From assembly GCA_030386875.1 (NCBI GenBank), contig CM059568.1:11456316-11520315 (forward strand): a stretch of DNA of 64,000 bases, read 5' to 3'. Numbering within the stretch: the first letter of the stretch is position 1; each line of letters starts with the position of its first letter. Shown here piece after piece: positions 1 to 23,861 of the stretch. Below the pieces are notes generated by a model, which saw only the letters and a program-made list of their open reading frames with translations, made no database searches and was not told the DNA's origin. The position numbers and the translations under genes were made by a program. The DNA is from Morinoia aosen. Its lineage: Eukaryota; Arthropoda; Malacostraca; Amphipoda; Talitridae.

Positions 1-1
1 G

Positions 2-1540
2 AAAGTCAAGCGAATACCGATATTCAAAACTATTCCAAAGAAAATCAAATTATTCGAAAAAAAATCTGATGCCGCTGCCAGGCCTCCGTCGAACGACCAA
101 ACCAATACTGCTACCGAAAAATCAACAGTGAATCAAATTTGCACACGCGTTGCAGACACACTGGACGACTTGAAACGATCGCTCAAAATGGAGCCTGCTT
201 ACACTGTAGGTGACGGACACTGTCTCCTCCACGCCGTAACGACGCAGCTTGCTTCACAACAAATATCGAAATGGAATTATATATCTCTGAAAAAAGCCAT
301 CAAAACTGAGAGCTCCAGAAACGAGGACCAGTATGCAAAATTCGTTGACAAGAACAGTGGCAGTTTCGAAAAACTCATCGATAAATACATCGATAAATAC
401 ATCGATGAATACATCGATAAATACATCGATAAATACATCGACAAATACATCGACAAATACATCGACAAATACATCGACAAATACATCGACAAATACATCG
501 ATAAATACATCGATAAATACATCGATAAATACATCGATAAATACATCGATAAATACATCGATATATACATCGATATATACATCGATAAATACATCGATAA
601 ATACATCGATAAATACATCGATAGATACATCGATAAATACATCGATAAATACATCGATAAATACATCGATAAATACATCGATAAATACATCGATAAATAC
701 ATCGATAAATACATCGATAAATACATCGATAAATACATCGATAAATACATCGATAAATACATCGATAAATACATCGATAAATACATCGATAAATACATCG
801 ATAAATACATCGATAAATACACCGATATATACACCGATAAATACACCGATAAATACACCGATAAATACACCGATAAATACACCTATAAATACACCGATAA
901 ATACACCGATAAATACACCGATAAATACACCGATAAATACACCGATAAATACACCGATAAATACAACGATAAATACATCGATAAATACATCGATAAATAC
1001 ATCGATAAATACATCGATAAATACATCGATAAATACATCGATAAATACATCGATAAATACATCGATAAATACATCGATAAATACATCGATAAATATATCG
1101 ATAAATACATCGATAAATACATCGATAAATACATCGATAAATACATCGATAAATACATCGATAAATACATCGATAAATACATCGATAAATACATCGATAA
1201 ATACATCGATAAATACATCGATAAATACATCGATAAATACATCGATAAATACATCGATAAATACATCGATAAATACATCGATAAATACATCGATAAATAC
1301 ATCGATATATACATCGATAAATACATCGATAAATACATCGATAAATACATCGATAAATACATCGATAAATACATCGATAAATACATCGATAAATACATCG
1401 ATAAATACATCGATAAATACATCGATAAATACATCGATAAATACATCGATAAATACATCGATAAATACATCGATAGAAAAGTCTTCGATCACGCTGTTGG
1501 AGACCTCATACGAAAGACTTTGGGGAAGGATTGGAATTAA
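2..1540 (+). CDS. LINE-P ORF1 C-terminal part, OTU-like cysteine protease with giant DKYI repeat (partial, left arm)
   Basis: The frame is open from the window start to 1,540 and continues upstream of it, as the mirror copy shows. About 75 residues in comes the motif TVGDGHCLLHAV, which fits the catalytic Asp-Gly-x-Cys block of OTU-family deubiquitinating proteases. Shortly after, the OTU-like sequence is interrupted by roughly 91 units of Asp-Lys-Tyr-Ile and variants (Thr, Glu, Arg, Asn substitutions), all in frame, followed by a short tail ending GKDWN. The matching catalytic histidine is not visible in this frame; a neighbouring frame carries further protein-like sequence after 1,530, suggesting a frameshift there. 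In the mirror copy this segment follows an SGNH-like ORF1 region and lies 5' of the LINE endonuclease/RT. I therefore assign it to LINE-P ORF1, although a separate captured gene is possible. Confidence 0.6.
   Translation, partial: KVKRIPIFKTIPKKIKLFEKKSDAAARPPSNDQTNTATEKSTVNQICTRVADTLDDLKRSLKMEPAYTVGDGHCLLHAVTTQLASQQISKWNYISLKKAIKTESSRNEDQYAKFVDKNSGSFEKLIDKYIDKYIDEYIDKYIDKYIDKYIDKYIDKYIDKYIDKYIDKYIDKYIDKYIDKYIDKYIDIYIDIYIDKYIDKYIDKYIDRYIDKYIDKYIDKYIDKYIDKYIDKYIDKYIDKYIDKYIDKYIDKYIDKYIDKYIDKYIDKYIDKYTDIYTDKYTDKYTDKYTDKYTYKYTDKYTDKYTDKYTDKYTDKYTDKYNDKYIDKYIDKYIDKYIDKYIDKYIDKYIDKYIDKYIDKYIDKYIDKYIDKYIDKYIDKYIDKYIDKYIDKYIDKYIDKYIDKYIDKYIDKYIDKYIDKYIDKYIDKYIDKYIDIYIDKYIDKYIDKYIDKYIDKYIDKYIDKYIDKYIDKYIDKYIDKYIDKYIDKYIDRKVFDHAVGDLIRKTLGKDWN
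377..1474 (+). repeat. 12-bp coding minisatellite, about 91.5 copies (left arm)
   Basis: Tandem copies of ATACATCGATAA run for 1,098 bp, each with an ATCGAT hexamer. Because the period is 12, five of the six frames stay open: Asp-Lys-Tyr-Ile and Ile-Asn-Thr-Ser on the plus strand, and three frames on the minus strand. Those other long frames are artefacts of the repeat. Variant blocks are visible: a run of ACCGAT units at about 815-960 and paired ATATAT variants near 560-590. Confidence 0.97.
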
Positions 1541-1817
1541 AGTTATATCCAGCCGGGAATAATTTAATTGCCTGTCTTTTGAAACAAAATTATACCAGTC
1601 AATGGCTAAGGAACACAAATATTCCCGGAAGGGTGGTGTTGATGCAGTTGAGGACCGCTAGGGCGTAGGACCTCTAATCCTGCCACCATCTCCCGTTGCC
1701 TGGCGAGATAAAAATGAAATTATGTAATTTTCGTATTTAAAGGTAACAATACACCGTCATCAGTTTTAGTAATAGTAATGCCACAATGGCCAAGTTATAG
1801 TTTATATTAATAGTAAT

Positions 1818-2793
1818 AGTAATGCCACAAGGGTCAAGTTATAGTAATGCCACAAGGGTCAAGTTATAGTAATGCCACAAGGGTCAAGTTATAGTAATGC
1901 CACAAGGGTCAAGTTATAGTAATGCCACAAGGGTCAAGTTATAGTAATGCCAAAAGGGTCAAGTTATAGTAATGCCACAAGGGTCAAGTTATAGTAATGC
2001 CACAAGGGTCAAGTTATAGTAATGCCACAAGGGTCAAGTTATAGTAATGCCACAAGGGTCAAGTTATAGTAATGCCACACGTGTCAAGTTACAGTAATGC
2101 CACACGGGTCAAGTTATAGTAATGCCACACGGGTCAAGTTATAGTAATGCCACACGGGTCAAGTTATAGTAATGCCACACGGGTCAAGTTATAGTAATGC
2201 CACACGGGTCAAGTTATAGTAATGCCACAAGGGTCAAGTTATAGTAATGCCACAAGGGTCAAGTTATAGTAATGCCACAAGGGTCAAGTTATAGTAATGC
2301 CACAAGGGTCAAGTTATAGTAATGCCACAAGGGTCAAGTTATAGTAATGCCACAAGGGTCAAGTTATAGTAATGCCACAAGGGTCAAGTTATAGTAATGC
2401 CACAAGGGTCAAGTTATAGTAATGCCACAAGGGTCAAGTTATAGTAATGCCACACGGGTCAAGTTATAGTAATGCCACACGGGTCAAGTTATAGTAATGC
2501 CACACGGGTCAAGTTATAGTAATGCCACACCGGTCAAGTTATAGTAATGCCACACGGGTCAAGTTATAGTAATGCCACACGGGTCAAGTTATAGTAATGC
2601 CACACGGGTCAAGTTATAGTAATGCCACACGGGTCAAGTTATAGTAATGCCACACGGGTCAAGTTATAGTAATGCCACACGGGTCAAGTTATAGTAATGC
2701 CACACGGGTCAAGTTATAGTAATGCCACACGGGTCAAGTTATAGTAATGCCACACGGGTCAAGTTATAGTAATGCCACACGGGTCAAGTTATA
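1818..2793 (+). repeat. 25-bp satellite, about 39 copies (left arm)
   Basis: Units start AGTAATGCCACAAGGG and repeat every 25 bp. A degenerate unit lies upstream at about 1,774. Two variants (CACAAGGG and CACACGGG) are arranged in alternating blocks, about 10 A-type, 6 C-type, 9 A-type, then 14 C-type. The mirror array has only one C block and one A block, so the left array appears to have gained an extra A+C segment. No spacers are present, so it is not a CRISPR array. Confidence 0.95.
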
Positions 2794-2806
2794 GTAATAG
2801 TAATGC

Positions 2807-3528
2807 CAGGCAGTTGTGGGTTACGTTGATAGTTCTAAAGTTAAACCGATTCTAGCATCACCAGTTAACTCACGCCAAGCTAACTGGTAACCAACCTCTA
2901 GAACGTCGATTCAGAGGCCACAGGTGGACGAAGACCGACGCGGTGAGACGTGACGTTCTTCATAAGCATCCATCAGGCAGGCTGGGTGTTATCCCTTGAA
3001 GGGGTGAGGTGTCACGTAGCGGACGGAAGGACGAGGGCTGGACGACACAGGCACCTGGAGTGCTTAGCTCTCCATCTGGAAGGTTATAGCTTCACCGGAT
3101 GAAAGAAAGTGATAATGCATGCTGAGGGGAGTACAACCGAATTATTACGTTGTGCTGGCTGGAAGGGTCAAAATGATCTGCCCCCAGCTCTAATGGCAAG
3201 CTCCCGAAGTAAAGTTGATGATACATTCAGGAAGCCTATAGGTTGCAGTCAGGTTAGCTACCGGTAAGCCTAGCGCTAGAACTGGTGATGCTCTACCTGT
3301 CTTATTTATTTTCTACACCTCATACCCCAAATACTTTCTTATGTAACGAGAACACCAATTCACGTATTTGATGAAAGAGACAATGGGATTTGGAAGACGA
3401 CAATCTCCCCTACATCAAATGCTCTGATAAACAGTCCTCCGGTAAACATACACCGGAAACAGGACCACTATAGCGCCCTCTTGAAAATGCGTGATGAAAA
3501 TCGTGTTGCTCCCTCCCCCATTTTGTGA
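2807..3528 (+). other. LINE-P inter-ORF region (left arm), no gene seen
   Basis: About 720 bp of unique, moderately GC-rich sequence separates the 25-bp array from the first open codons of ORF2. It contains short direct and inverted words such as CTAACTGGT / ACCAGTTAACT near 2,860-2,890 but no ORF I can support. A minus-strand mirror copy occupies about 19,918-20,640. Confidence 0.5.
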
Positions 3529-6160
3529 CTAAATAACAGTGATCAAATTGAATTTGAAGCTGAAATCACAAACAATGAACGCGGCAATAAAGACCTAGAG
3601 ACGAATACTAAATGCCCTGCTAGACCTAAAAAATGCAATAACTCCACCAAAGATCTGCCTATTGAGATAAATAATATCAAAATATTGCACATAAATGCTC
3701 GCAGTCTCAATGGTAAAATGGATGACGTACGAGTAATGCTGATCACTAACGATATCGATATTTTATGCGTATCTGAAACATGGTTCGATTCCCGAGCCGA
3801 AAGCTCATATCTCAGAATTACCGGGTACAAATTGTACCGTTATGACGGAGTCAAGAGTAAGAGAGGTAGCGGTTCATGCATTTTCATCAAAGATGTCTAC
3901 TCTACATCCTTAGTTCCGATAAAAGAAAAATGCGAAGACATAGAAATGGTTTGGCTCAATGTTCAAGTAAACAATCACAAGTCTTTCATTATCGGCAGTC
4001 TTTACAGACATCCGTCAGCATCTCTTCGTCCAACATTAGATTTCATTGAAAATACGCCTAGATCAATCTCTGCAGCCAAAAAGTCTTTCTATGTTTTCGG
4101 AGATTTTAACGTAGATCTGACAAATAAAAACAATCAGCTAAGCAAGATGCTGCACAGACTTAATCTTTCTCAAATGGTCCAAGAACCAACGCGAATTACC
4201 AACACTTCCAAAACTCTTCTTCACCTAGCAATTACATACAATCCACAAGCAGTACTCAGCATGGAAATCTTACCGTCCTTTTCTGATCACTATTCGGTAG
4301 AATGCCAAATCAATATTGCAAAAGAGAAACAGAAATCTAGTTGCATTACATATCGCATGAAAAACCACTACTCCCCTGAAATATTTCAAGAAAAGCTATT
4401 AGACAGATGGAATGAATTTCAAGGCATGGAAAACACCGATAATGTCAATCTACAAGTTTCGCTTTTCACCGAAAATTTCGTATCAGCTCTTAACGAATGC
4501 GCACCTTTCATGACGAAGAAAGTTAAGCTAAGAATTTCTAAATGGATAACAGATGAGATAAAACGGTTGAGCAGAGCTAAAAGAAATTTGCAGCGTGAGT
4601 ACAAACTGAATAAATCAGACAGTACGCGTCGAAAATTATATAAAGATCATGAGAAGATCCTACGAAGAAAAGTTAAGGAAGCAAAACGGGACTACTTCCA
4701 CAAAGAACTCTTGGCGGCAAAACAAAACCCTAAAAGAACTTGGGAAATCATTAGAGAAGTTACTCAGTATAAAAATTCAGACTGCAAAAGCACTTTTGAC
4801 AACCCCTCAAAAATGGCGAATGACTTTAACACTTTCTTCTCAAAAGTTGGCGAAGATGTTTTCAATGAAGTATCCAGGACAGTTTCAAACACATCTACAG
4901 AGACAAATCCGAGCGATGAGTCATCCCCAAATAGTAGCAACAAGTGGAGACCAAAGCCAGTTAGCGTCATAGAGATACGAAAAATCTTATACTCACTAAA
5001 GAATACTAAAGCGACTGGACATGATAACATAAGCCTCCAACATATAAAAGACAGCTTCCCTGTCACAGCACCCCTTATTCGCTCGATAATAAATACATCT
5101 ATAGTCACTAACAAGTTTCCCGATCAATGGAAACTATCCATTATTAAGCCATTACATAAATCTAGTGATATCGATATTGCGTCAAACTACAGACCAATCA
5201 GTCTCCTGCCTGTTATGTCCAAAATATTAGAAAAAGTGAAAACAAACCAGCTCTCGTCTTCCATAGACGAGTCACATCTACTGCATCGCAATCAATATGC
5301 TTACAGAAGGAATACCAGTACTCAGGACGCCCTGTTAAACATAACAGAAAAAATTTACAATGATATTGACCAAAAAATTAACTCTCTTGCTTGATCTCTC
5401 CAAAGCTTTCGACAGTGTTGAGCATAAGAAACTTCTACAAAAAATTTCCAACCTCAGAATAGACACTCAGTGGTTTGAAAGCTACCTACTAAACCGCTCT
5501 CATGCAGTGTGCTTGAATAACAAAATGTCATCATTCATACCAAATAATTTTGCGCTCCTCAAGGTTCAATCATCGGCCCACTCCTATTTTCAATTTTCAT
5601 CAATGATTTCCCCACCATGCCGGCAAACACAAAAATCTCAATGTATGCTGATGACGTGCAAATTGCCATGACAAGCTCAACAGCGGTTTTAAAAGAAACA
5701 CAAGCCAACGCTGAAAACCTTCTGAGAAATCTGAAATTGTGGTATGACCATAATGGCCTCAAACTCGCAAGTAAAACGCAATGCATTATTTTTGGATCAC
5801 AGAATGCGACTGAAAATTTACCACCATTCAAGCTAACATTTGGAGACGATACAATTAAACCAGTAGATAAGGTTTAAACTCTGGGTGTTTGGTTTGACAA
5901 AAATATGACTTTCAATTCACACGTCGAAACAATGTGCAACAAAATTAACGGAACCTTAATGTTCTTTCATCGTATAAAGAACACACTTGACGAAAAATCT
6001 AGATTATTAGTGATTCAGTCTTTAGTTTTATCGCGTCTGGACTACTGCAGTCTTGTGTGGGGAGATTTACTTCAATGTCGTCAGGAATTAAGAGTTGCAA
6101 AAATGTCTAAACTTCACCGCTAAAGTAGTATGCAAAGGAAATCTGTATATTAATACGCTT
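3529..6160 (+). pseudogene. LINE-P ORF2: APE-type endonuclease and reverse transcriptase, CR1/L2-like (decayed, left arm)
   Basis: Frame open from 3,529; first Met at 3,685. Counting from that Met, endonuclease motifs are Asn4 (HINAR), Glu31 (SETW), Tyr107-Arg108, Asp140-x-Asn142 (GDFN) and Ser200-Asp201-His202. The RT begins near residue 430 (NTKATGHDNIS) and includes NYRPISLLPVMSKILEK. The frame shifts near 5,380-5,394, giving motif A LLDLSKAFDSVEH, then again near 5,550, giving motif B APQGSIIGPLLFSIF and motif C YADDVQI. An in-frame TAA lies at 5,875-5,877, after which LDYCSLVWGD follows. Protein similarity stops near 6,190, where an AT-rich block begins; the missing C-terminus reappears at 9,171. 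The style is CR1/L2-group; exact clade not assigned. The same frameshifts and stop occur in the right arm, so decay preceded the palindrome. Confidence 0.88.
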
Positions 6161-6189
6161 AAAACTAAATTCGTGGGTAACGCTCTACA

Positions 6190-7400
6190 TCTAATAGGTC
6201 TGATAGGATAGGTGAGTTAGGGGAGGGTATTTATATTATTTATTTTGTATTAAGTGTTTTTTATACGGTAATTTTTATTTTAATTGGTAATTTATTTTTG
6301 ATTCGTTAACTTTCGGTAATTTGGTAATTATTTTATAATTTATTTCAATTAATTTTTATTCATATATTTTTTAAATTTTCAATTTTTTTAAAACTTTTCA
6401 TTTTTTTGAATTGTAATTTATTTTTAAATTTTTTATTCATTCCCAATTTTTATTTGTTTCATTTTTTTATTTATTTTTTTATTTTTTTATTTTTTTTTAT
6501 GAATTTTAATTTTTCCTATTTGTTTTCATTTTTTCCAAATTCAATTTTTTTATTCTATCATTTTTTCCAAATTTTTATTTTTTAAATTTTTTAATATTTT
6601 TCAATTTATTTATTTTTCTCAATTTGTTATTTTTTTATTTATCATTTATTTATTTTTCTCTATTCTTGCATATTTATTTTTAAATAATGTATCCCAAGCT
6701 ATTTCATTTTTTTCAATTTTTTATTTTTCTAATTTTTATTTACCATTTTTTTAACACACTCATTTAATTTGTTTTTTTTTCCCCATTCTTCATTATTTTT
6801 AAATATATTAATTTTTTCCGTTTTGTTTTATTTATTCCTAATTTTAGAATTTTTGAATTTTTTTATTTATATTTTCATTTTTCACTTTTTCTTTTTTAAT
6901 TTTTTATTTGATAATTTTTCAATATTTTCAATATTTTTATATTATTTTTTCAATTTCTAATTAATTTCAATTTTCAGTTTTTTCGCAATTTGTTATTAAT
7001 TATCATTTTTTTCAATTTTTTTTTTAAATATTCAATTTTAATTTTTAATTTTTTTATTTATTTTCAATTTTTTTCTAATTTTTTTATTTTTTCCTTTCTT
7101 TTTATTTTATTCAATTATTTTTTTTTGTTTATATCCATTTTTTTGTGTTTTTTGTTATTTTTTTATTGTTTTTTTGTTTTATTTTTTACAGTTCAATGAT
7201 ATGTTTTTATTGATTTATTTTTAATATCTTCATTTTTTATTCTAATTTATTTTTTTAAATTTTTATTCAATTAAAAGTTTTTATTTCAATTTTCTCTATT
7301 TATTTATTCATTTATCTTTTTAACTTGCTTTTTATTGTTTAATTGCCTTTATTTTTTTATTTTTCTTCCATTTTTCTTCCATTTTTTGAAACTTTGTATT
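6190..7400 (+). repeat. T-rich low-complexity block (left arm)
   Basis: About 1.2 kb built almost wholly from (A)T-rich words such as AATTTTTTATTTTT, with extreme strand asymmetry (T on plus). Short Phe/Leu/Ile-rich reading frames at 6,769-6,960 and 6,990-7,199 are by-products of composition. It begins where the LINE-P RT similarity ends, so it forms the first half of the material that splits the LINE. Confidence 0.85.
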
Positions 7401-7619
7401 ACATAAAAATTTGATTTAAAATTACAGTAATTATTTCAGGAATCTTTCCATATCATAGAATTCCAATAAAATACATTTGCTTCATACTTCAACCTTATAT
7501 GCTTGAAAGTGAGTTAATTATTGAAACAGCGTAATCCACATGGATTTCTACTCATTATTATGAAGGCGCCGTAACTCGCGGTATCGTGTCTACGAACATA
7601 CTATGCACAAGGAAACAAG
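7401..7619. other. Unique AT-rich link between T-rich block and TTAGG-like array
   Basis: About 220 bp of non-repetitive sequence. I see no gene. It is mirrored at about 15,830-16,050 with a few single-base differences. Confidence 0.4.
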
Positions 7620-9170
7620 CAGAATGGATAGGATAGGTTGGTACATGTTAGGTTTGCATGGGTTAGGTTGGAATATGTTATTTTAGATTCTATTGGGTAA
7701 TGTTCACCGAATTTTTTCATGGGTCCACCTAGCTTAACAATGACATAAGTTCAGTTAGGATAGGTAGGGTTAGGATAGGTTGAGTTAGGTTAGGATAGGC
7801 AAGATCAGGATAGGTTAGGTTAGGTAAGGTCAGGATAGGTAAGGTCAGGATAGGTAAGGTCAGGATAGGTTAGGTTAGGATAGGTTAGGATAGTTAGCAT
7901 AGGCTACGTAATGTTGACGACATTTATTCACGGGCCAACGGTTTTTATGTTTGCCATATTATCAGGAAAGCTTCCGTTAGCATAGGATAGGTTAGTGTAT
8001 ACATGTTAAGATAAGTTAGGTTAAAATATGTTGTTAGAACTTTTTGGTTAATGTTGACCAAATTTTCTCACGCGTACACCTAGCTTAACGATTACATTGG
8101 TTAAGTTAGGTTAGGATACGATGGGATAAGTTAGGTGATAGGTTAGGATATGATAGGTTAGTATATGATATGTTGGGATATGATAGGTTAGGATACGATA
8201 TGTTTGGACATGATATGTTTGGATAGGATAGGTTAGGATAGGATAGAATAGGTTTGGATAGGATAGGTTAGGATAGGATAGGTTAGGATAGGATAGGCTT
8301 TGATTGAATAGGTCAGGAAGAGATAGGTTAGAATGTTAGGTTAGGAGCCATAGCTTAGGTTAGAATGGGTTATGGTTGAATTTGTTAGATAATGTTGATG
8401 AAATTTTTGCACCGGGACACGGTTTTTTATTTTTGACATATCATCAGTATAGCTTCGATTAGGGTAGGTTAGGACAGGTTAGGTTAGCATAGGTTAGGTA
8501 TGTTATGGCGATGAAATTTTTTACGGATTCACGGTTTTTTGTTTGTCATATTATCAGGATAGGATTGGTTAAGATATGTTAGGTTAGGATAGGTTAGGTA
8601 ATGTTGACAGAATTTTATCAAGGGTCCACGTTTTTTATGTTTGATATATTTTCATGATAGGTTTGGTTAGCTTAGGTCAGGAAGAGTTAGGTTAGAATAT
8701 ATTAGGTTGAGATAGCTTAGGTTAGAATGGATTATGGTCGAATTTGTTAGATAATGTTGAGGAAATTTTTTAACGGGTACACGTTTTTTACTTTTGGCAT
8801 ATTATCAGTATTGCTTTGGTTTGGGCAGGTTAGGATATGTTAGGTTTGGGTAGGTTAAGTCGACTAAATTTTTTACGGGTTCAAGCTTTTTATGTTTTCC
8901 CAATTATCAGGATAGCTTCACTTAGGATACGATACGTTGAGATAGGATAGGTTAGTATATGTTAGTTTTGGATGAGTTAGGTTAAAATATGTTATGTAAG
9001 AATTTGTTAGGTAATATTTACCAAATTTTTTTACGGGTCCACCTAGCCTTAGGATAACGTTGGTTAAAGTTAGGTTAGGATGGTATATGTTAGGTTAGGA
9101 TAGATTTATGTTAGCATATGTTAGGACAAGATAGGTTAGAATATGTTATGTTCAAATTTGTTAAATAATG
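7620..9170 (+). repeat. Degenerate TTAGG-type array with higher-order unit (left arm)
   Basis: Runs of TTAGGATAGG and TTAGGTTAGG alternate with about ten copies of a longer module starting near TAATGTTGACGAAATTTTTT, at roughly 7,690, 7,910, 8,045, 8,390, 8,500, 8,600, 8,750, 8,860, 9,010 and 9,165. The modules come in two kinds: one continues with ACGGTTTTTTATGTTT and a TATTATCAGGATAG end, the other with CCACCTAGCTTAACGAT. This is an interstitial, mutated relative of the arthropod TTAGG repeat rather than a functional telomere. The last module abuts LINE-P coding sequence directly. Confidence 0.85.
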
Positions 9171-9895
9171 TTGACGGAATTTTCTCACGGGTCCCCAAAG
9201 CTTTTTGATGACATTGTCCGTGGAATTTCCAAGGGTCCTGCTAGTTTCAATAAATACGATCATGTCACCCCTCTTTTAAAAAAACTCGTCTGGATCCCAA
9301 TACCGAACAGATTTATGATCCAGAAAGCTCGACGAGTATTCTCCTCTTTGTAACTCCCCCAAAGTAATGCAGAGGCGGTAAAATTTTTTCTATCTAATAT
9401 CCCAAACGAAAGACCAAACCGGAAGAACGATGTTTTTGTCAGTTACCGTTCATCTAACGTGGGACAAAAAGTTCTCTCAGTTTCTGGAGCTTTTGTGTGG
9501 AACAAGCTTCCCCAGCATATCAAAAACTCTAAAACTGGAAAAGAATTTAGAGTAAATGTGTCACGTCATTTTGCATCTCTGTCATAGGGCCTGCAGCATT
9601 TCGGTATGAACTTCCCATCTATTTAAAATTTTAATTTTCCTGAAATTTCTGTTGAAAATTTAGAAACTATTTCATTTTACGTTTGCTAAGCGATTCGTAT
9701 ATTCATCTTACTTATTTCTGTCAACAACAATGAGCACCACAGCCGTCAGTTCAATGCAGCAGAACGAACGTTCTTTCCATAATTAGGAGTATTTCCTCAT
9801 CTTTATTTTGTTATTTCTTTCTCTTTTCTGTATTAATATTTAACGTCCGTATGACAAATATACCATGAAATACATTTTGTGCGTACACCAATAAA
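9171..9895 (+). pseudogene. LINE-P ORF2 C-terminus and 3' UTR (left arm)
   Basis: One frame reads KYDHVTPLLKKLVWIPIPNR, the usual CR1/L2-like tail motif (x-D-H-V-T-P-L-L-x-x-L-x-W-L-P). After a stop near 9,353 another frame reads NVGQKVLSVSGAFVWNKLP and ends with TAG at about 9,587-9,589. This is the part of ORF2 missing after 6,160, so about 3 kb of satellite sits inside the LINE. Sequence to about 9,895 (CCAATAAACAGG) is probably 3' UTR; its exact end is inferred. Confidence 0.75.
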
Positions 9896-11019
9896 CAGGT
9901 TTATAGATGTGAGGGTTGTGCAAAGTTTATAATGAATTAAATTTTGGCGAACGTTGTCTCGCTATTTCAAAATCATTCTCGTAGATGTTCTCAATCGATT
10001 TTCGGCTGAGCTGGGGGGAAGGGGGTAATTTAAGCATTGCATTTATTTTTTTTATTTTTTTATTTTTTTCCGTGCGTTCAGCGCACACGAGCACTGAACT
10101 TTCAAATCGGAAAAAACTCTAAATTTCTGTAATTAAAATTATCACTTTGGATCAAAGCCTAATCTACCTATATGTGCTAAATTTTGTGAATATTCTCTAC
10201 TCAGATGTGATATCCGGCCTCAATGTTACTCCATTTTATCCCACGTACACATGTCCGTATAATGCTGAAGAGTTGTGTTGCTTCTTGACTATAACCTGAT
10301 TTTTCTTAAAAAATTCTGTGAAGAAATTAAAAACCAGTTCATTTTTATGTTTTTCGAAGACTTCTTTTCATTTTAGTTATTTTTTTTTGCGAAAAAATTC
10401 TTAGGATTACAGTGAGCTCAACTGTCATTTTCTGTGTAGTAGATGGTTGGTTGCTTTTCTAATATTTCTAATATTTCATATTTCTATTTTTTTCTAATAT
10501 TTCATTTTCAATAAGTACATATATTAATATGTGTGTGTACGTGTGTAGGTATATATATGTATCTACATATATAGATATACATGTTTCTATTTCATTTCTT
10601 TACGCAAAAACCATCCGGTTAATAAATTTTATTGCACTAGCGAAATGATTCAAAAATAGATCTATCACTTCCCCAGAGGGCGTTTCTGTGAATCGGATTA
10701 ATGTCAAATATAATTAATGAAATAAAGTGCAATTTGAGCATATGAATCTTAGTAAAATTATCTTTCTGTCCGTATGTTGTACAAACTATGAATTTTGATA
10801 TTGGGTATATATTTGTTTACCCATTTCTACTAATATTTTGTAGATATTTATCAATCATGAGTGGTAACCGGCTTACACTGGATCTCTATTTTATCCCATG
10901 TACCCATGTCCGCATGATGTGGTGAATATCGAGAAGATATGAAATATGTTTTTGGTGGTGATAGGGCTTTGCATATTTTTAGGGCATGTTTTTCATTTCT
11001 CATTCAACTACCCTTGACA
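9896..11019. repeat. Unclassified interspersed repeat, two adjacent copies (left arm)
   Basis: Two diverged copies, about 10,125-10,450 and 10,590-10,930, share the core TTTTATCCCATGTACCCATG plus the nearby words GTCCG and ATATTTG. A third copy with the same order of words lies at 33,160-33,720. No ORF, terminal repeats or target duplication could be recognised. A TG/TA-rich microsatellite lies between the copies at about 10,515-10,580. The remainder holds nothing I can name. Confidence 0.6.
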
Positions 11020-11649: not shown

Positions 11650-11721
11650 AATAATACGGAGTTTATTCCAATTGGGTTTTCCCTACCTTGCCGGGTTCGT
11701 TTGCACCTCAGGCACTCACTT

Positions 11722-12429: not shown

Positions 12430-13553
12430 TGTCAAGGGTAGTTGAATGAGAAATGAAAAACATGCCCTAAAAATATGCAAAGCCCTATCACCACCAAAAA
12501 CATATTTCATATCTTCTCGATATTCACCACATCATGCGGACATGGGTACATGGGATAAAATAGAGATCCAGTGTAAGCCGGTTACCACTCATGATTGATA
12601 AATATCTACAAAATATTAGTAGAAATGGGTAAACAAATATATACCCAATATCAAAATTCATAGTTTGTACAACATACGGACAGAAAGATAATTTTACTAA
12701 GATTCATATGCTCAAATTGCACTTTATTTCATTAATTATATTTGACATTAATCCGATTCACAGAAACGCCCTCTGGGGAAGTGATAGATCTATTTTTGAA
12801 TCATTTCGCTAGTGCAATAAAATTTATTAACCGGATGGTTTTTGCGTAAAGAAATGAAATAGAAACATGTATATCTATATATGTAGATACATATATATAC
12901 CTACACACGTACACACACATATTAATATATGTACTTATTGAAAATGAAATATTAGAAAAAAATAGAAATATGAAATATTAGAAATATTAGAAAAGCAACC
13001 AACCATCTACTACACAGAAAATGACAGTTGAGCTCACTGTAATCCTAAGAATTTTTTCGCAAAAAAAAATAACTAAAATGAAAAGAAGTCTTCGAAAAAC
13101 ATAAAAATGAACTGGTTTTTAATTTCTTCACAGAATTTTTTAAGAAAAATCAGGTTATAGTCAAGAAGCAACACAACTCTTCAGCATTATACGGACATGT
13201 GTACGTGGGATAAAATGGAGTAACATTGAGGCCGGATATCACATCTGAGTAGAGAATATTCACAAAATTTAGCACATATAGGTAGATTAGGCTTTGATCC
13301 AAAGTGATAATTTTAATTACAGAAATTTAGAGTTTTTTCCGATTTGAAAGTTCAGTGCTCGTGTGCGCTGAACGCACGGAAAAAAATAAAAAAATAAAAA
13401 AAATAAATGCAATGCTTAAATTACCCCCTTCCCCCCAGCTCAGCCGAAAATCGATTGAGAACATCTACGAGAATGATTTTGAAATAGCGAGACAACGTTC
13501 GCCAAAATTTAATTCATTATAAACTTTGCACAACCCTCACATCTATAAACCTG
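12430..13553. repeat. Unclassified interspersed repeat, two adjacent copies (right arm)
   Basis: Mirror of 9,896-11,019. The core words CATGGGTACATGGGATAAAA (about 12,540-12,560) and GTGTACGTGGGATAAAATGG (about 13,200-13,220) mark the two copies. Nothing else is recognisable. Confidence 0.6.
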
Positions 13554-14278
13554 TTTATTGGTGTACGCACAAAATGTATTTCATGGTATATTTGTCATAC
13601 GGACGTTAAATATTAATACAGAAAAGAGAAAGAAATAACAAAATAAAGATGAGGAAATACTCCTAATTATGGAAAGAACGTTCGTTCTGCTGCATTGAAC
13701 TGACGGCTGTGGTGCTCATTGTTGTTGACAGAAATAAGTAAGATGAATATACGAATCGCTTAGCAAACGTAAAATGAAATAGTTTCTAAATTTTCAACAG
13801 AAATTTCAGGAAAATTAAAATTTTAAATAGATGGGAAGTTCATACCGAAATGCTGCAGGCCCTATGACAGAGATGCAAAATGACGTGACACATTTACTCT
13901 AAATTCTTTTCCAGTTTTAGAGTTTTTGATATGCTGGGGAAGCTTGTTCCACACAAAAGCTCCAGAAACTGAGAGAACTTTTTGTCCCACGTTAGATGAA
14001 CGGTAACTGACAAAAACATCGTTCTTCCGGTTTGGTCTTTCGTTTGGGATATTAGATAGAAAAAATTTTACCGCCTCTGCATTACTTTGGGGGAGTTACA
14101 AAGAGGAGAATACTCGTCGAGCTTTCTGGATCATAAATCTGTTCGGTATTGGGATCCAGACGAGTTTTTTTAAAAGAGGGGTGACATGATCGTATTTATT
14201 GAAACTAGCAGGACCCGTGGAAATTCCACGGACAATGTCATCAAAAAGCTTTGGGGACCCGTGAGAAAATTCCGTCAA
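13554..14278 (-). pseudogene. LINE-P ORF2 C-terminus and 3' UTR (right arm)
   Basis: Mirror of 9,171-9,895. The minus-strand ORF at 14,096-14,281 encodes the HVTPLLKKLVWIPIPNR motif; the last part, with SVSGAFVWNKLPQHIK, ends at about 13,861. One residue differs from the left arm in the first part (Ile-Ser-Thr versus Ile-Ser-Lys). It is cut off from the RT by the CCTAA-like and A-rich blocks, exactly as in the left arm. Confidence 0.75.
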
Positions 14279-15830
14279 CATTATTTAACAAATTTGAACA
14301 TAACATATTCTTAACTATCTTGTCCTAACATATGCTAACATAAATCTATCCTAACCTAACATATACCATCCTAACCTAACTTTAACCAACGTTATCCTAA
14401 GGCTAGGTGGACCCGTAAAAAAATTTGGTCAATATTACCTAACAAATTCTTACATAACATATTTTAACCTAACTCATCCAAAACTAACATATACTAACCT
14501 ATCCTATCTCAACGTATCGTATCCTAAGTGAAGCTATCCTGATAATTGGGAAAACATAAAAAGCATGAACCCGTAAAAAATTTAGTCGACTTAACCTACC
14601 CAAACCTAACATATCCTAACCTGCCCAAACCAAAGCAATACTGATGATATGCCATAAGTAAAAAACGTGTACCCGTTAAAAAATTTCCTCAACATTATCT
14701 AACAAATTCGACCATAATCCATTCTAACCTAAGCTATCTCAACCTAATATATTCTAACCTAACTCTTCCTGACCTAAGCTAACCAAACCTATCATGAAAA
14801 TATATCAAACATAAAAAACGTGGACCCTTCATAAAATTCTGTCAACATTACCTAACCTATCCTAACCTAACATATCTTAACCAATCCTATCCTGATAATA
14901 TGACAAACAAAAAACCGTGAATCCGTAAAAAATTTCATCGCCATAACATACCTAACCTATGCTAACCTAACCTATCCTAACCTACCCTAATCGAAGCTAT
15001 ACTGATGATATGTCAAAAATAAAAAACCGTGTCCCGGTGCAAAAATTTCATCAACATTATCTAACAAATTCAACCATAACCCATTCTAACCTAAGCTATG
15101 GCTCCTAACCTAACATTCTAACCTATCTCTTCCTGACCTATTCAATCAAAGCCTATGCTATCCTAACCTATCCTATCCTAACCTATCCTATCCAAACCTA
15201 TTCTATCCTATCCTAACCTATCCTATCCAAACATATCATGTCCAAACATATCGTATCCTAACCTATCATATCCCAACCTATCATATACTAACCTATCATA
15301 TCCTAACCTATCACCTAACTTATCCCATCGTATCCTAACCTAACTTAACCAATGTAATCGTTAAGCTAGGTGTACGCGTGAGAAAATTTGGTCAACATTA
15401 ACCAAAAAGTTCTAACAACATATTTTAACCTAACTTATCTTAACATGTATACACTAACCTATCCTATGCTAACGGAAGCTTTCCTGATAATATGGCAAAC
15501 ATAAAAACCGTTGGCCCGTGAATAAATGTCGTCAACATTACGTAGCCTATGCTAACTATCCTAACCTATCCTAACCTAACCTATCCTGACCTTACCTATC
15601 CTGACCTTACCTATCCTGACCTTACCTAACCTAACCTATCCTGATCTTGCCTATCCTAACCTAACTCAACCTATCCTAACCCTACCTATCCTAACTGAAC
15701 TAATGTCATTGTTAAGCTAAGTGGACCCATGAAAAAATTCGGTGAACATTACCCAATAGAATCTAAAATAACATATTCCAACCTAACCCATGCAAACCTA
15801 ACATGTACCAACCTATCCTATCCATTCTGC
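14279..15830 (-). repeat. Degenerate CCTAA-type array with higher-order unit (right arm)
   Basis: Mirror of the TTAGG-like array at 7,620-9,170, reading CCTAACCTATCC on the plus strand, with the same interleaved modules. Array length is close to that of the left arm, unlike the 12-bp and 25-bp satellites. Confidence 0.85.
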
Positions 15831-16059
15831 TTGTTTCCTTGTGCATAGTATGTTCGTAGACACGATACCGCGAGTTACGGCGCCTTCATAATGATGAGTA
15901 GAAATCCGTGTGGATTACGCTGTTTCAATAATTAACTCACTTTCAAGCATATAAGGTTGAAGTATGAAGCAAATGTATTTTATTGGAATTCTTTGATATG
16001 GAAAGATTCCTGAAATAATTACTGTAATTTTAAATCAAATTTTTATGTAATGCAAAGTT

Positions 16060-17225
16060 TCAAAAAATGGAAGAAAAATGGAAGAAAAATAAAAAAATAA
16101 AGGCAATTAAACAATAAAAAGCAAGTTAAAAAGATAAATGAATGAATAAATAGAGAAAATTGAAATAAAAACTTTTAATTGAATAAAAATTTAAAAAAAT
16201 AAATTAGAATAAAAAATGAAGATATTAAAAATAAATCAATAAAAACATATCATTGAACTGTAAAAAATAAAACAAAAAAACAATAAAAAAATAACAAAAA
16301 ACACAAAAAAATGGATATAAACAAAAAAAAAATAATTGAATAAAATAAAAAGAAAGGAAAAAATAAAAAAATTAGAAAAAAATTGAAAATTAATAAAAAA
16401 ATTAAAAATTAAAATTGAATATTTAAAAAAAAATTGAAAAAAATGATAATTAATAACAAATTGCGAAAAAACTGAAAATTGAAATTAATTAGAAATTGAA
16501 AAAATAATATAAAAATATTGAAAATATTGAAAAATTATCAAATAAAAAATTAAAAAAGAAAAAGTGAAAAATGAAAATATAAATAAAAAAATTCAAAAAT
16601 TCTAAAATTAGGAAAAAATAAAACAAAACGGAAAAAATTAATATATTTAAAAATAATGAAGAATGGGGAAAAAAAACAAATTAAATGATTGTGTTAAAAA
16701 AATGGTAAATAAAAATTAGAAAAATAAAAAATTGAAAAAAATGAAATAGCTTGGGATACATAATTTAAAAATAAATATGCAAGAATAGAGAAAAATAAAT
16801 AAATGATAAATAAATAAATAACAAATTGAGAAAAATAAATAAATTGAAAAATATTAAAAAATTTAAAAAATAAAAATTTTGAAAAAATGATAGAATAAAA
16901 AAATTAAATTTGGAAAAAATGAAAACAAATAGGAAAAATTAAAATTCATAAAAAAATACAAAAATAAAAAAATAAATAAAAAAAATGAAACAAATAAAAA
17001 TTGGGAATGAATAAAAAATTTAAAAATAAATTACAATTCAAAAAAATGAAAAGTTTTAAAAAATTGAAAATTTAAAAAATAAATGAATAAAAATTAATTG
17101 AAATAAATTATAAAATAATTACCAAATTACCGAAAGTTAACGAATCAAAAATAAATTACCAATTAAAATAAAAATTACCGTATAAAAAATACTTAATACA
17201 AAATAAATAATATAAATACCCTCCC
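16060..17225 (-). repeat. A-rich low-complexity block (right arm)
   Basis: Mirror of the T-rich block at 6,190-7,400, here A-rich on the plus strand. A few single-base and homopolymer-length differences from the left arm are visible. Confidence 0.85.
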
Positions 17226-17289
17226 CTAACTCACCTATCCTATCAGACCTATTAGATGTAGAGCGTTACCCACGAATTTAGTTTTAAGC

Positions 17290-19917
17290 GTATTAATATA
17301 CAGATTTCCTTTGCATACTACTTTAGCGGTGAAGTTTAGACATTTTTGCAACTCTTAATTCCTGACGACATTGAAGTAAATCTCCCCACACAAGACTGCA
17401 GTAGTCCAGACGCGATAAAACTAAAGACTGAATCACTAATAATCTAGATTTTTCGTAAAGTGTGTTCTTTATACGATGAAAGAACATTAAGGTTCCGTTA
17501 ATTTTGTTGCACATTGTTTCGACGTGTGAATTGAAAGTCATATTTTTGTCAAACCAAACACCCAGATTTTAAACCTTATCTACTGGTTTAATTGTATCGT
17601 CTCCAAATGTTAGCTTGAATGGTGGTAAATTTTCAGTCGCATTCTGTGATCCAAAAATAATGCATTGCGTTTTACTTGCGAGTTTGAGGCCATTATGGTC
17701 ATACCACAATTTCAGATTTCTCAGAAGGTTTTCAGCGTTGGCTTGTGTTTCTTTTAAAACCGCTGTTGAGCTTGTCATGGCAATTTGCACGTCATCAGCA
17801 TACATTGAGATTTTTGTGTTTGCCGGCATGGTGGGGAAATCATTGATGAAAATTGAAAATAGGAGTGGGCCGATGATTGAACCTTGAGGAGCGCAAAATT
17901 ATTTGGTATGAATGATGACATTTTGTTATTCAAGCACACTGCATGAGAGCGGTTTAGTAGGTAGCTTTCAAACCACTGAGTGTCTATTCTGAGGTTGGAA
18001 ATTTTTTGTAGAAGTTTCTTATGCTCAACACTGTCGAAAGCTTTGGAGAGATCAAGCAAGAGAGTTAATTTTTTGGTCAATATCATTGTAAATTTTTTCT
18101 GTTATGTTTAACAGGGCGTCCTGAGTACTGGTATTCCTTCTGTAAGCATATTGATTGCGATGCAGTAGATGTGACTCGTCTATGGAAGACGAGAGCTGGT
18201 TTGTTTTCACTTTTTCTAATATTTTGGACATAACAGGCAGGAGACTGATTGGTCTGTAGTTTGACGCAATATCGATATCACTAGATTTATGTAATGGCTT
18301 AATAATGGATAGTTTCCATTGATCGGGAAACTTGTTAGTGACTATAGATGTATTTATTATCGAGCGAATAAGGGGTGCTGTGACAGGGAAGCTGTCTTTT
18401 ATATGTTGGAGGCTTATGTTATCATGTCCAGTCGCTTTAGTATTCTTTAGTGAGTATAAGATTTTTCGTATCTCTATGACGCTAACTGGCTTTGGTCTCC
18501 ACTTGTTGCTACTATTTGGGGATGACTCATCGCTCGGATTTGCCTCTGTAGATGTGTTTGAAACTGTCCTGGATACTTCATTGAAAACATCTTCGCCAAC
18601 TTTTGAGAAGAAAGTGTTAAAGTCATTCGCCATTTTTGAGGGGTTGTCAAAAGTGCTTTTGCAGTCTGAATTTTTATACTGAGCAACTTCTCTAATGATT
18701 TCCCAAGTTCTTTTAGGGTTTTGTTTTGCCGCCAAGAGTTCTTTGTGGAAGTAGTCCCGTTTTGCTTCCTTAACTTTTCTTCGTAGGATCTTCTCATGAT
18801 CTTTATATAATTTTCGACGCGTACTGTCTGATTTATTCAGTTTGTACTCACGCTGCAAATTTCTTTTAGCTCTGCTCAACCGTTTTATCTCATCTGTTAT
18901 CCATTTAGAAATTCTTAGCTTAACTTTCTTCGTCATGAAAGGTGCGCATTCGTTAGGAGCTGATACGAAATTTTCGGTGAAAAGCGAAACTTGTAGATTG
19001 ACATTATCGGTGTTTTCCATGCCTTGAAATTCATTCCATCTGTCTAATAGCTTTTCTTGAAATATTTCAGGGGAGTAGTGGTTTTTCATGCGATATGTAA
19101 TGCAACTAGATTTCTGTTTCTCTTTTGCAATATTGATTTGGCATTCTACCGAATAGTGATCAGAAAAGGACGGTAAGATTTCCATGCTGAGTACTGCTTG
19201 TGGATTGTATGTAATTGCTAGGTGAAGAAGAGTTTTGGAAGTGTTGGTAATTCGCGTTGGTTCTTGGACCATTTGAGAAAGATTAAGTCTGTGCAGCATC
19301 TTGCTTAGCTGATTGTTTTTATTTGTCAGATCTACGTTAAAATCTCCGAAAACATAGAAAGACTTTTTGGCTGCAGAGATTGATCTAGGCGTATTTTCAA
19401 TGAAATCTAATGTTGGACGAAGAGATGCTGACGGATGTCTGTAAAGACTGCCGATAATGAAAGACTTGTGATTGTTTACTTGAACATTGAGCCAAACCAT
19501 TTCTATGTCTTCGCATTTTTCTTTTATCGGAACTAAGGATGTACAGTAGACATCTTTGATGAAAATGCATGAACCGCTACCTCTCTTACTCTTGACTCCG
19601 TCATAACGGTACAATTTGTACCCGGTAATTCTGAGATATGAGCTTTCGGCTCGGGAATCGAACCATGTTTCAGATACGCATAAAATATCGATATCGTTAG
19701 TGATCAGCATTACTCGTACGTCATCCATTTTACCATTGAGACTGCGAGCATTTATGTGCAATATTTTGATATTATTTATCTCAATAGGCAGATCTTTGGT
19801 GGAGTTATTGCATTTTTTAGGTCTAGCAGGGCATTTAGTATTCGTCTCTAGGTCTTTATTGCCGCGTTCATTGTTTGTGATTTCAGCTTCAAATTCAATT
19901 TGATCACTGTTATTTAG
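17290..19917 (-). pseudogene. LINE-P ORF2: endonuclease and reverse transcriptase (decayed, right arm)
   Basis: Mirror of 3,529-6,160, minus strand. Pieces at 18,052-19,761 (endonuclease and RT start), 17,775-18,086 (motif A, LLDLSKAFDSVEH), 17,569-17,829 (motif C, YADDVQI) and 17,323-17,541 (LDYCSLVWGD) sit in the same order and carry the same frame changes and stop as the left arm. Four residues differ in the 569-aa segment: Ser to Cys, Leu to Pro and two Thr to Ala. The identical lesions show that the LINE was already dead when the palindrome formed. Confidence 0.88.
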
Positions 19918-20640
19918 TCACAAAATGGGGGAGGGAGCAACACGATTTTCATCACGCATTTTCAAGAGGGCGCTATAGTGGTCCTGTTTCCGGTGTATGT
20001 TTACCGGAGGACAGTTTATCAGAGCATTTGATGTAGGGGAGATTGTCGTCTTCCAAATCCCATTGTCTCTTTCATCAAATACGTGAATTGGTGTTCTCGT
20101 TACATAAGAAAGTATTTGGGGTATGAGGTGTAGAAAATAAATAAGACAGGTAGAGCATCACCAGTTCTAGCGCTAGGCTTACCGGTAGCTAACCTGACTG
20201 CAACCTATAGGCTTCCTGAATGTATCATCAACTTTACTTCGGGAGCTTGCCATTAGAGCTGGGGGCAGATCATTTTGACCCTTCCAGCCAGCACAACGTA
20301 ATAATTCGGTTGTACTCCCCTCAGCATGCATTATCACTTTCTTTCATCCGGTGAAGCTATAACCTTCCAGATGGAGAGCTAAGCACTCCAGGTGCCTGTG
20401 TCGTCCAGCCCTCGTCCTTCCGTCCGCTACGTGACACCTCACCCCTTCAAGGGATAACACACAGCCTGCCTGATGGATGCTTATGAAGAACGTCACGTCT
20501 CACCGCGTCGGTCTTCGTCCACCTGCGGCCTCTGAATCGACGTTCTAGAGGTTGGTTACCAGTTAGCTTGGCGTGAGTTGACTGGTGATGCTAGAATCGG
20601 TTTAACTTTGGAACTATCAACGTAACCCACAACTGCCTGG
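19918..20640 (-). other. LINE-P inter-ORF region (right arm), no gene seen
   Basis: Mirror of 2,807-3,528 with scattered single-base differences. Nothing recognisable beyond its match to the left arm. Confidence 0.5.
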
Positions 20641-20652
20641 CATTACTATTAC

Positions 20653-21102
20653 TATAACTTGACCCGTGTGGCATTACTATAACTTGACCCGTGTGGCATT
20701 ACTATAACTTGACCCGTGTGGCATTACTATAACTTGACCCGTGTGGCATTACTATAACTTGACCCGTGTGGCATTACTATAACTTGACCCGTGTGGCATT
20801 ACTATAACTTGACCCGTGTGGCATTACTATAACTTGACCCGTGTGGCATTACTATAACTTGACCCGTGTGGCATTACTATAACTTGACCGGTGTGGCATT
20901 ACTATAACTTGACCCGTGTGGCATTACTATAACTTGACCCGTGTGGCATTACTATAACTTGACCCTTGTGGCATTACTATAACTTGACCCTTGTGGCATA
21001 ACTATAACTTGACCCTTGTGGCATTACTATAACTTGACCCTTGTGGCATTACTATAACTTGACCCTTGTGGCATTACTATAACTTGACCCTTGTGGCATT
21101 AC
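20653..21102 (-). repeat. 25-bp satellite, about 18 copies (right arm)
   Basis: Mirror of 1,818-2,793 but less than half its length. It has one block of GACCCGTGTGG units (including one GACCGGTGTGG variant also seen in the left arm) and one block of GACCCTTGTGG units. The shared rare variant anchors the alignment, so the length gap is a real array difference in this assembly. Confidence 0.95.
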
Positions 21103-21380
21103 TATTACTATTAATATAAACTATAACTTGGCCATTGTGGCATTACTATTACTAAAACTGATGACGGTGTATTGTTACCTTTAAATACGAAAATTACATA
21201 ATTTCATTTTTATCTCGCCAGGCAACGGGAGATGGTGGCAGGATTAGAGGTCCTACGCCCTAGCGGTCCTCAACTGCATCAACACCACCCTTCCGGGAAT
21301 ATTTGTGTTCCTTAGCCATTGACTGGTATAATTTTGTTTCAAAAGACAGGCAATTAAATTATTCCCGGCTGGATATAACT

Positions 21381-23861
21381 TTAATTCCAATCCTTCCCCA
21401 AAGTCTTTCGTATGAGGTCTCCAACAGCGTGATCGAAGACTTTTCTATCGATGTATTTATCGATGTATTTATCGATGTATTTATCGATGTATTTATCGAT
21501 GTATTTATCGATGTATTTATCGATGTATTTATCGATGTATTTATCGATGTATTTATCGATGTATTTATCGATGTATTTATCGATGTATTTATCGATGTAT
21601 TTATCGATGTATTTATCGATGTATTTATCGATGTATTTATCGATGTATTTATCGATGTATTTATCGATGTATTTATCGGTGTATTTATCGGTGTATTTAT
21701 CGATGTATTTATCGATGTATTTATCGATGTATTTATCGGTGTATTTATCGGTGTATTTATCGGTGTATTTATCGGTGTATTTATCGGTGTATTTATCGGT
21801 GTATTTATCGGTGTATTTATCGGTGTATTTATCGGTGTATTTATCGGTGTATTTATCGGTGTATTTATCGATGTATTTATCGATGTATTTATCGATGTAT
21901 TTATCGATGTATTTATCGATGTATTTATCGATGTATTTATCGATGTATTTATCGATGTATTTATCGATGTATTTATCGATGTATTTATCGATGTATTTAT
22001 CGATGTATTCATCGATGTATTTATCGATGTATTTACCGATGTATTCATCGATGTATTCATCGATGTATTCATCGATGTATTCATCGATGTATTCATCGAT
22101 GTATTCATCGATGTATTTATCGATGTATTTATCGATGTATTTATCGATGTATATATCGATGTATATATCGATGTATTTATCGATGTATTTATCGATGTAT
22201 TTATCGATGTATTTATCGGTGTATTTATCGATGTATTTATCGATGTATTTATCGATGTATTTATCGATGTATATATCGATGTATATATCGATGTATATAT
22301 CGATGTATTTATCGATGTATTTATCGATGTATTTATCGATGTATTTATCGATGTATTTATCGATGTATTTATCGATGTATTTATCGATGTATTTATCGAT
22401 GTATTTATCGATGTATTTATCAATGTATTTATCAATGTATTTATCGATGTATTTATCGATGTATTTATCGATGTATTTATCGATGTATTTATCGATGTAT
22501 TTATCGATGTATTTATCGATGTATTTATCGATGTATTTATCGATGTATTTATCGATGTATTTATCGATGTATTTATCGATGTATTTATCGATGTATTTAT
22601 CGATGTATTTATCGATGTATTTATCGATGTATTTATCGATGTATTTATCGATGTATTTATCGATGTATTTACCGATGTATTTACCGATGTATTCATCGAT
22701 GTATTCATCGATGTATTCATCGATGTATTCATCGATGTATTCATCGATGTATTTATCGATGTATATATCGATGTATATATCGATGTATTTATCGATGTAT
22801 TTATCGATGTATTTATCGATGTATTTATCGGTGTATTTATCGATGTATTTATCAATGTATTTATCGATGTATTTATCGATGTATATATCGATGTATATAT
22901 CGATGTATATATCGATGTATTTATCGATGTATTTATCGATGTATTTATCGATGTATTTATCGATGTATTTATCGATGTATATATCGATGTATTTATCGAT
23001 GTATATATCGATGTATTTATCGATGTATTTATCGATGTATTTATCGATGTATTTATCGATGTATTTATCAATGTATTTATCGATGTATTTATCGATGTAT
23101 TTATCGATGTATTTATCGATGTATTTATCGATGTATTTATCGATGTATTTATCGATGTATTTATCGATGTATTTATCGATGTATTTATCGATGTATTTAT
23201 CGATGTATTTATCGATGTATTTATCGATGTATTTATCGATGTATTTATCGATGTATTTATCGATGTATTTATCGATGTATTTATCGATGTATTTATCGAT
23301 GTATTTATCGATGTATTTATCGATGTATTTATCGATGTATTTATCGATGTATTTATCGATGTATTTATCGATGAGTTTTTCGAAACTGCCACTGTTCTTG
23401 TCAACGAATTTTGCATACTGGTCGTTGTTTCTGGAGCTCTCAGTTTTGATGGCTTTTTTCAGAGATATATAATTCCATTTCGATATTTGTTGTGAAGCAA
23501 GCTGCGTCGTTACGGCGTGGAGGAGACAGTGTCCGTCACCTACAGTGTAAGCAGGCTCCATTTTGAGCGATCGTTTCAAGTCGTCCAGTGTGTCTGCAAC
23601 GCGTGTGCAAATTTGATTCACTGTTGATTTTTCGGTAGCAGTATTGGTTTGGTCGTTCGACGGAGGCCTGGCAGCGGCATCAGATTTTTTTTCGAATAAT
23701 TTGATTTTCTTTGGAATAGTTTTGAATATCGGTATTCGCTTGACTTTCCTTGGTTCCTGCGTACTCACTGGAAAGTTGAGAATTGGTTGAAAAGGAGGGC
23801 ATGTCGCAATCACTATTTGTGTCTGTTGCAAGTAACGCAAACTTATTTTTCGTACTGACAT
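21381..23861 (-). CDS. LINE-P ORF1 C-terminal part: OTU-like cysteine protease with giant DKYI repeat (right arm)
   Basis: An 826-codon minus-strand frame. Residues 41-80 are Lys-rich (KRIPIFKTIPKKIKLFEKKS). The OTU-like motif GDGHCLLHAV lies at residues 108-117, with Cys112 as predicted nucleophile. From about residue 165 the frame becomes roughly 640 residues of Asp-Lys-Tyr-Ile-type repeats, then ends with FDHAVGDLIRKTLGKDWN. The likely true upstream coding sequence lies in another frame at 23,760-25,479, so the first 40 residues here may be non-native and a frameshift sits near 23,750. OTU proteases cleave ubiquitin linkages; a role in protecting a retrotransposon protein would be inference. 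Peptidase domains are known in some mobile-element proteins, but I cannot name an exact relative. Confidence 0.6.
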   Translation of the reverse strand: MSVRKISLRYLQQTQIVIATCPPFQPILNFPVSTQEPRKVKRIPIFKTIPKKIKLFEKKSDAAARPPSNDQTNTATEKSTVNQICTRVADTLDDLKRSLKMEPAYTVGDGHCLLHAVTTQLASQQISKWNYISLKKAIKTESSRNNDQYAKFVDKNSGSFEKLIDKYIDKYIDKYIDKYIDKYIDKYIDKYIDKYIDKYIDKYIDKYIDKYIDKYIDKYIDKYIDKYIDKYIDKYIDKYIDKYIDKYIDKYIDKYIDKYIDKYIDKYIDKYIDKYIDKYIDKYIDIYIDKYIDIYIDKYIDKYIDKYIDKYIDKYIDIYIDIYIDIYIDKYIDKYIDKYIDKYTDKYIDKYIDKYIDKYIDIYIDIYIDKYIDEYIDEYIDEYIDEYIDEYIGKYIGKYIDKYIDKYIDKYIDKYIDKYIDKYIDKYIDKYIDKYIDKYIDKYIDKYIDKYIDKYIDKYIDKYIDKYIDKYIDKYIDKYIDKYIDKYIDKYIDKYIDKYIDKYIDKYIDKYIDKYIDKYIDIYIDIYIDIYIDKYIDKYIDKYIDKYTDKYIDKYIDKYIDKYIDIYIDIYIDKYIDKYIDKYIDEYIDEYIDEYIDEYIDEYIDEYIGKYIDKYIDEYIDKYIDKYIDKYIDKYIDKYIDKYIDKYIDKYIDKYIDKYIDKYIDKYTDKYTDKYTDKYTDKYTDKYTDKYTDKYTDKYTDKYTDKYTDKYIDKYIDKYIDKYTDKYTDKYIDKYIDKYIDKYIDKYIDKYIDKYIDKYIDKYIDKYIDKYIDKYIDKYIDKYIDKYIDKYIDKYIDKYIDKYIDRKVFDHAVGDLIRKTLGKDWN
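21447..23372 (-). repeat. 12-bp coding minisatellite, about 160.5 copies (right arm)
   Basis: The right-arm array is 1,926 bp against 1,098 bp in the left arm, a difference of exactly 69 units. It contains an internal duplication: the variant pattern at about 22,014-22,305 (six GTATTC units, two ATATAT, one GGT, three ATATAT) recurs 612 bp (51 units) later at about 22,690-22,912. That block is not seen in the left arm. All variants keep the 12-bp phase. Confidence 0.97.

Follow-up and report, generated by a model that had tools for sequence, protein, structure and literature searches.

A near-perfect palindrome of at least 23.7 kb in the genome assembly of the amphipod Morinoia aosen, probably two haplotypes joined head to head

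Extent and axis of the palindrome

In assembly GCA_030386875.1 of the talitrid amphipod Morinoia aosen, a 64,000-nt stretch of contig CM059568.1 (positions 11,456,316 to 11,520,315 of the forward strand; hereafter the window) opens within a giant palindrome, whose arms at 1–11,721 (plus strand, the visible part of the left arm) and 11,728–23,748 (minus strand) are reverse complements of each other and flank a 6-nt spacer, TGCCCG, at 11,722–11,727. A preliminary description made from the letters alone had placed this structure at 1–23,748, and a repeat search, a self-BLAST of the window and an alignment outward from the axis all confirmed it. The self-BLAST, which like the alignment recovered both arms, returned an inverted match over 2,287–21,153 (18.9 kb) at 99.2%; the repeat search, run over 11,600–11,850, placed the spacer and the left arm next to it, with segments 11,600–11,721 and 11,728–11,849 being 99% complementary and 6 nt apart; and in the alignment base 1 of the window pairs with base 23,748. 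Arms this long and this alike cannot have arisen by chance. The length of 23.7 kb is a lower bound, as the left arm is interrupted by nothing but the edge of the window. A minus-strand OTU-like open reading frame (ORF) at 21,381–23,903 runs continuously across 23,748, so an arm boundary is not seen at that position, and we found no evidence for a boundary at 25,500, the right limit used in the preliminary description.

The axis consists of a small hairpin, CACTT-TGCCCG-AAGTG, with a 5-bp stem and the 6-nt spacer, within which G11723 and C11726 are able to pair by coincidence. A true chromosomal inverted duplication could begin at such a site, the 3′ strand of a resected broken end snapping back on the hairpin and being extended into a palindrome, after which either the arms diverged or the homologue supplied one outer arm by exchange; we consider this origin possible but less likely than an artefact. 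In its favor, the large palindromic duplications of Mre11- or Sae2-deficient yeast carry 5–9-bp inverted repeats with 3–12-bp spacers (Deng et al., as cited in PMC7999016), and at the M. aosen axis there is likewise a short inverted repeat, whose spacer is of such a length, but the arms here are diverged rather than new and identical. The junction itself is weak evidence, given that 156 stems of 5 bp with a 6-nt loop occur in the 12,021-nt right arm, which makes the axis hairpin not distinctive, and a fold-back in vitro could produce an identical junction. Apart from the two arms, no copy of the axis-proximal 485 bp was found in the window with an E value better than 0.007 among the best 30 matches, almost all of which lay in A/T runs. 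When the window was scanned with Rfam and for tRNA genes, 0 matches were returned, and thus no rDNA- or tRNA-based structure was seen.

Contents of the arms

Each arm holds the same dead long interspersed nuclear element (LINE), comprising the OTU-like frame, an endonuclease domain and the start of a reverse transcriptase (RT). In the left arm, the ORF list and translation gave an endonuclease-RT ORF of 621 aa at 3,529–5,394 (plus strand), with its RT broken after 5,394; the mirror ORF lies at 18,052–19,917 (minus strand), as identified from the ORF list, Pfam and the arm comparison. The endonuclease (PF03372) scored above the Pfam cutoff and the RT (PF00078) below it, and a Phage_Orf51 match of this ORF, likewise below cutoff, was rejected. 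The match of the OTU-like ORF to PF02338 (E=0.0025, 18.7 bits) was below the curated cutoff of 23.3, and its matches to DUF445, CdrL_M and zf-Tim10_DDP were rejected because they fall on IDKY repeats, which are encoded by a 12-bp satellite lying in frame within the ORF.

Past 5,394, the translations read as RT-like sequence continuing in other frames and interrupted by a stop. Over 5,200–6,130, only 2 of 931 bases differ from the mirror, with no indel; the stops coincide between the arms in two frames, as do all but one in the third, and the RT-breaking stops at 5,392 and 5,875 are common to both arms. The lesions that both arms have in common are older than the two copies, and the presence of one dead, identically damaged LINE in each arm identifies the arms as two versions of one locus. 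The 621-aa ORF shows four nucleotide differences between the arms, all four of which alter an amino acid, a pattern that may be compatible with a dead gene.

Beyond this ORF, the arms contain A/T-rich sequence, degenerate (TTAGG)-like tandem repeats (7,627–9,216, mirror 14,233–15,822, found by tandem-repeat analysis and self-comparison), a dispersed repeat that recurs at 33.2–33.5 kb (79%), a tandem repeat with 26-bp units and, at the axis, a GC-rich segment. The TTAGG-like repeats, like the LINE and LTR elements of the window, point to a nuclear genome of arthropod type. Adjoining the axis is a GC-rich reading frame of 96 aa (11,797–12,084, plus strand, mirrored on the left arm) with no Pfam match. 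Across the four arm frames scanned, Pfam recognized no host gene, the accepted matches being of transposable-element (TE) type or none. Mitochondrial dimers of isopods are reportedly palindromic; a dimer of this type was rejected here because the arms contain nuclear-type LINEs. A search for viral-contig relatives gave 16 pattern matches and 0 confirmed relatives for the ORF at 24,019–24,834 and no pattern match for the endonuclease-RT ORF, so no outside copy reveals the sequence beyond the axis. A literature search on LINEs with OTU plus esterase ORFs found no paper that contained four of its five terms.

Differences between the arms

The arms carry two minisatellites, analyzed by tandem-repeat detection and by maps in which units were lettered by variant. 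The 12-bp array has 91.7 copies in the left arm (376–1,475, plus strand) and 160.7 in the right (21,446–23,373, minus strand), a difference of 69 units or 828 bp; the 25-bp array has 39.5 copies in the left arm (1,812–2,798, plus strand) and 18.5 in the right (20,648–21,109, minus strand), a difference of 21 units or 525 bp. In the variant maps of both arrays, the ends agree and the interiors differ between arms, as they would between length alleles. If the assembly of the arrays is correct, the occurrence of each satellite in two lengths indicates that the arms are two DNA versions of one locus and not one template read twice. The right-arm 12-bp array (~161 units, against ~92 in the left) lies in frame within the OTU-like ORF of the LINE and encodes (IDKY)n; with the unit in frame, a change in copy number by whole units leaves the OTU-like frame intact.

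Outside the two minisatellites and the spacer (regions 1–375, 1,476–1,811 and 2,799–11,721 with their mirrors), 44 of 9,629 aligned bases were substituted, or 0.46%; an alternative count that keeps two spacer positions gave 46/9,632. Six indels of 1–2 nt, all in A/T runs between 6,389 and 7,127, were the only short ones outside the satellites. Together these exceed the difference of about 0.3% originally estimated.

Divergence was uneven along the arms (chi-square P=5e-5). In the arm alignment, the axis-proximal stretch (9,233–11,721, up to ~2.5 kb from the axis) differed from its mirror at 3 of 2,489 bases, compared with 39 of 6,429 farther out to 2,799 (Fisher P=0.0015), and the longest identical tract, 2,045 bp, was matched in 4 of 5,000 permutations. 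By triplet entropy, the lowest quartile held 17 substitutions in 2,230 bases and the others 6/2,229, 10/2,234 and 9/2,225, suggesting that simple sequence contributes; 19 of the 42 substitutions in block 2,799–11,721 fell in the upper half.

The odd base at individual substitutions was called by the recurrence of its 9-mer context, a procedure applicable to few of the 13 that lie within or beside the TTAGG-like repeats. The left base was odd at 8,475, where its 9-mer occurs 0 times elsewhere versus 28, and weakly so at 8,171 (0 versus 4), while the right base was odd at the mirror of 8,292 (0 versus 14) and at the mirrors of 9,135 and 9,137 (0 versus 29 and 8). Neither arm therefore carries all the changes, and, judging from these contexts, changed bases seem to sit on both arms.

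These differences bear on the simplest artefact, in which one DNA molecule was read forward and back, through a missed adapter or a template–complement read, and the differences are consensus errors. The symmetry of the structure and the confinement of short indels to A/T runs would suit such an event. Arms of this kind should be identical save for sequencing error, however, whereas here the satellites differ by hundreds of base pairs with reshuffled variant maps, and nearly half of the substitutions in the main block lie in more complex sequence. The argument of the preliminary description that scattered substitutions in both arms oppose a simple read fold-back is thus upheld and strengthened, resting now on substitutions in complex as well as simple sequence, changes on both arms and differing minisatellite maps, and we regard a single-molecule origin as very improbable.

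The uneven divergence and the near-identical axis stretch would also suit an old palindrome whose arms were kept similar by gene conversion between them, as happens on sex chromosomes, a class that the preliminary description had listed. On the human Y, P1 and P2 are described as palindromes with very small spacers (PMC3723533), so a short spacer cannot by itself exclude this class. The palindrome shares large arms and high identity with those of the human Y P6 type, but P6 arms differ by ~0.02% around a spacer of ~46 kb (PMC3723533), compared with 0.46% and 6 nt here. In addition, the outer arms were not homogenized far below normal divergence, nor were the minisatellites, and the arms hold TEs and satellites, with no host gene recognized in the four frames scanned. 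Likeness to this class is therefore not supported, and gene conversion is a highly unlikely explanation.

Probable joining of two haplotypes head to head

The arms are thus either alleles falsely joined or paralogues truly joined. We favor the former, with a probability of roughly 0.6: two haplotypes linked head to head by a fold-back molecule or a graph join, a possibility that the preliminary description had listed, without ranking, as haplotypes in opposite orientation beside the sex-chromosome type, gene amplification and a fold-back artefact. One ordinary TE-rich locus would be present twice in opposite orientation, the two homologous chromosomes contributing one copy each. The link at 11,722–11,727 would go back either to a chimeric molecule, formed in the library or during amplification by snapping back on the short hairpin, or to a comparable false edge in the assembly graph, and from there the assembly would have extended outward, following haplotype A in one direction and haplotype B in the opposite one. 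We infer an allelic relation between the two copies and the absence of the junction from the chromosome. The common LINE lesions, the substitutions and the two lengths of each satellite describe one locus with allele-like differences, which fits paralogous arms too. In our judgement, 0.46% is plausible as heterozygosity, and the near-identical centre agrees with a short fold-back bridge that gives way to true alleles farther out.

Fold-back molecules are known from both Oxford Nanopore Technologies (ONT) and PacBio sequencing (PMC12870357). For whole-genome amplification (WGA), palindromes are reported to make up 45.8% of the reads in Arabidopsis and 11.8% in gorilla, and inverted duplications in a gorilla Y assembly were attributed by the authors to them (PMC6218980); in tardigrade multiple displacement amplification (MDA), palindromes often made up more than one third of mitochondrial reads (PMC13265396). 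As these sources describe them, such reads resemble the M. aosen structure in being near-perfect inverted duplications whose spacer is tiny or missing and which frequently carry no adapter remnant, and they can enter assemblies as false inverted duplications (PMC12870357, PMC6218980, PMC13265396). They are copies of one molecule, however, whereas here the satellite alleles differ and substitutions separate the arms; with arms from different templates, an artefact also requires the joining of two templates.

Persistence weighs against a real palindrome. Breakage becomes a greater risk as the arms grow longer and more similar and as the spacer shrinks or disappears (PMC7999016), which makes long, similar arms around a very short spacer prone to break, yet a real palindrome needs time to accumulate 0.46% divergence, and the two are hard to reconcile. 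Alleles, unlike the arms of a real palindrome, require no time after joining. A chromosomal snap-back is compatible with the differing minisatellite alleles and with changes on both arms, and, if followed by exchange with the homologue, it likewise explains the scarcity of differences close to the axis. In a more specific form of this reading, which we consider unlikely, a snap-back on one homologue later recombined with the other, and the germline would contain a palindrome (at least 23.7 kb, 6-nt spacer) that holds both alleles of the locus on one chromosome, identical at the axis and allelic outward, and that is tolerated though break-prone.

Several observations weigh against the joining of two haplotypes. 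The axis-near deficit of substitutions was not significant when compared with 2,799–5,878 alone (3/2,489 versus 9/3,080, P=0.25) or within the high-complexity half (P=0.21). Unamplified ONT genomic DNA or complementary DNA gave at most 0.61% fold-back reads, and assemblers such as Canu and Flye attempt fold-back detection (PMC12870357), while a PacBio control had 0.5% fold-backs (PMC6218980). No adapter remnant was found at the axis, where the best local scores for adapter sequences were 7 and 6 against shuffle means of 7.2 and 7.1, a result that also counts against a single molecule read twice; the absence of a remnant decides little, because searchable sequence survives in fewer than half of fold-back reads (PMC12870357). 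Finally, the arm differences comprise 18 transitions and 26 transversions (18/44 transitions), which is odd for alleles. Three diverged TE copy pairs of the window were more transition-rich, at 32:17, 308:137 and 115:36 (P=0.023, 0.0003 and 0.00003 against the arms), and the AT-rich LINE pair of 94% identity (35% GC), the nearest in base composition, had 42:31, with P=0.09 against the arms by itself and P=0.033 when pooled with the 98% pair.

This near-random ratio would suit a single molecule with consensus errors, and such error could also contribute to the low transition share, but as the source of every difference we reject it since the satellite lengths oppose one template. Old TTAGG-like repeat copies inside the arms are also transversion-rich (e.g., 76 transitions to 144 transversions), and sequence context may account for part of the low share.

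Other elements in the window

Further repeats lie in the remainder of the window. A second inverted pair, at 39,240–40,671 and 41,577–43,010, consists of LINE fragments 94.4% alike and 905 bp apart. A LINE at 28,051–32,549 (minus strand) has two long frames, measured stop to stop, of 929 aa, with endonuclease and RT above cutoff, and of 581 aa, with no Pfam match; it was perhaps recently active. Direct repeats of 313 bp (97%) bound a region of long ORFs that may be BEL/Pao-like; this region and a related copy (87%) occupy 43,381–47,564 and 51,534–60,067, the related copy sitting between 2.49-kb direct repeats (98%) that are similar also to 35,080–36,720. Direct repeats of ~640 bp at 48,786–49,422 and 62,645–63,284 are 96.4% alike, with other repeats nested between them and an ORF at 60,039–62,108 whose match to RVT_3 exceeds the cutoff, those to RVT_1 and rve falling slightly short of it; the region looks like a long terminal repeat element interrupted by another element.

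Implications

Taking these observations together, we conclude that the palindrome is most likely not a genuine feature of the chromosome. If it is an artefact, it is of a kind that is hard to spot, since allele-like differences between arms could slip past filters for identical fold-backs, and a false duplicate plus a false palindrome would enter comparative surveys. If it is real, a palindrome whose arms have diverged around a spacer of 6 nt would run counter to the view that animal germlines do not retain long inverted repeats with such tight spacing.

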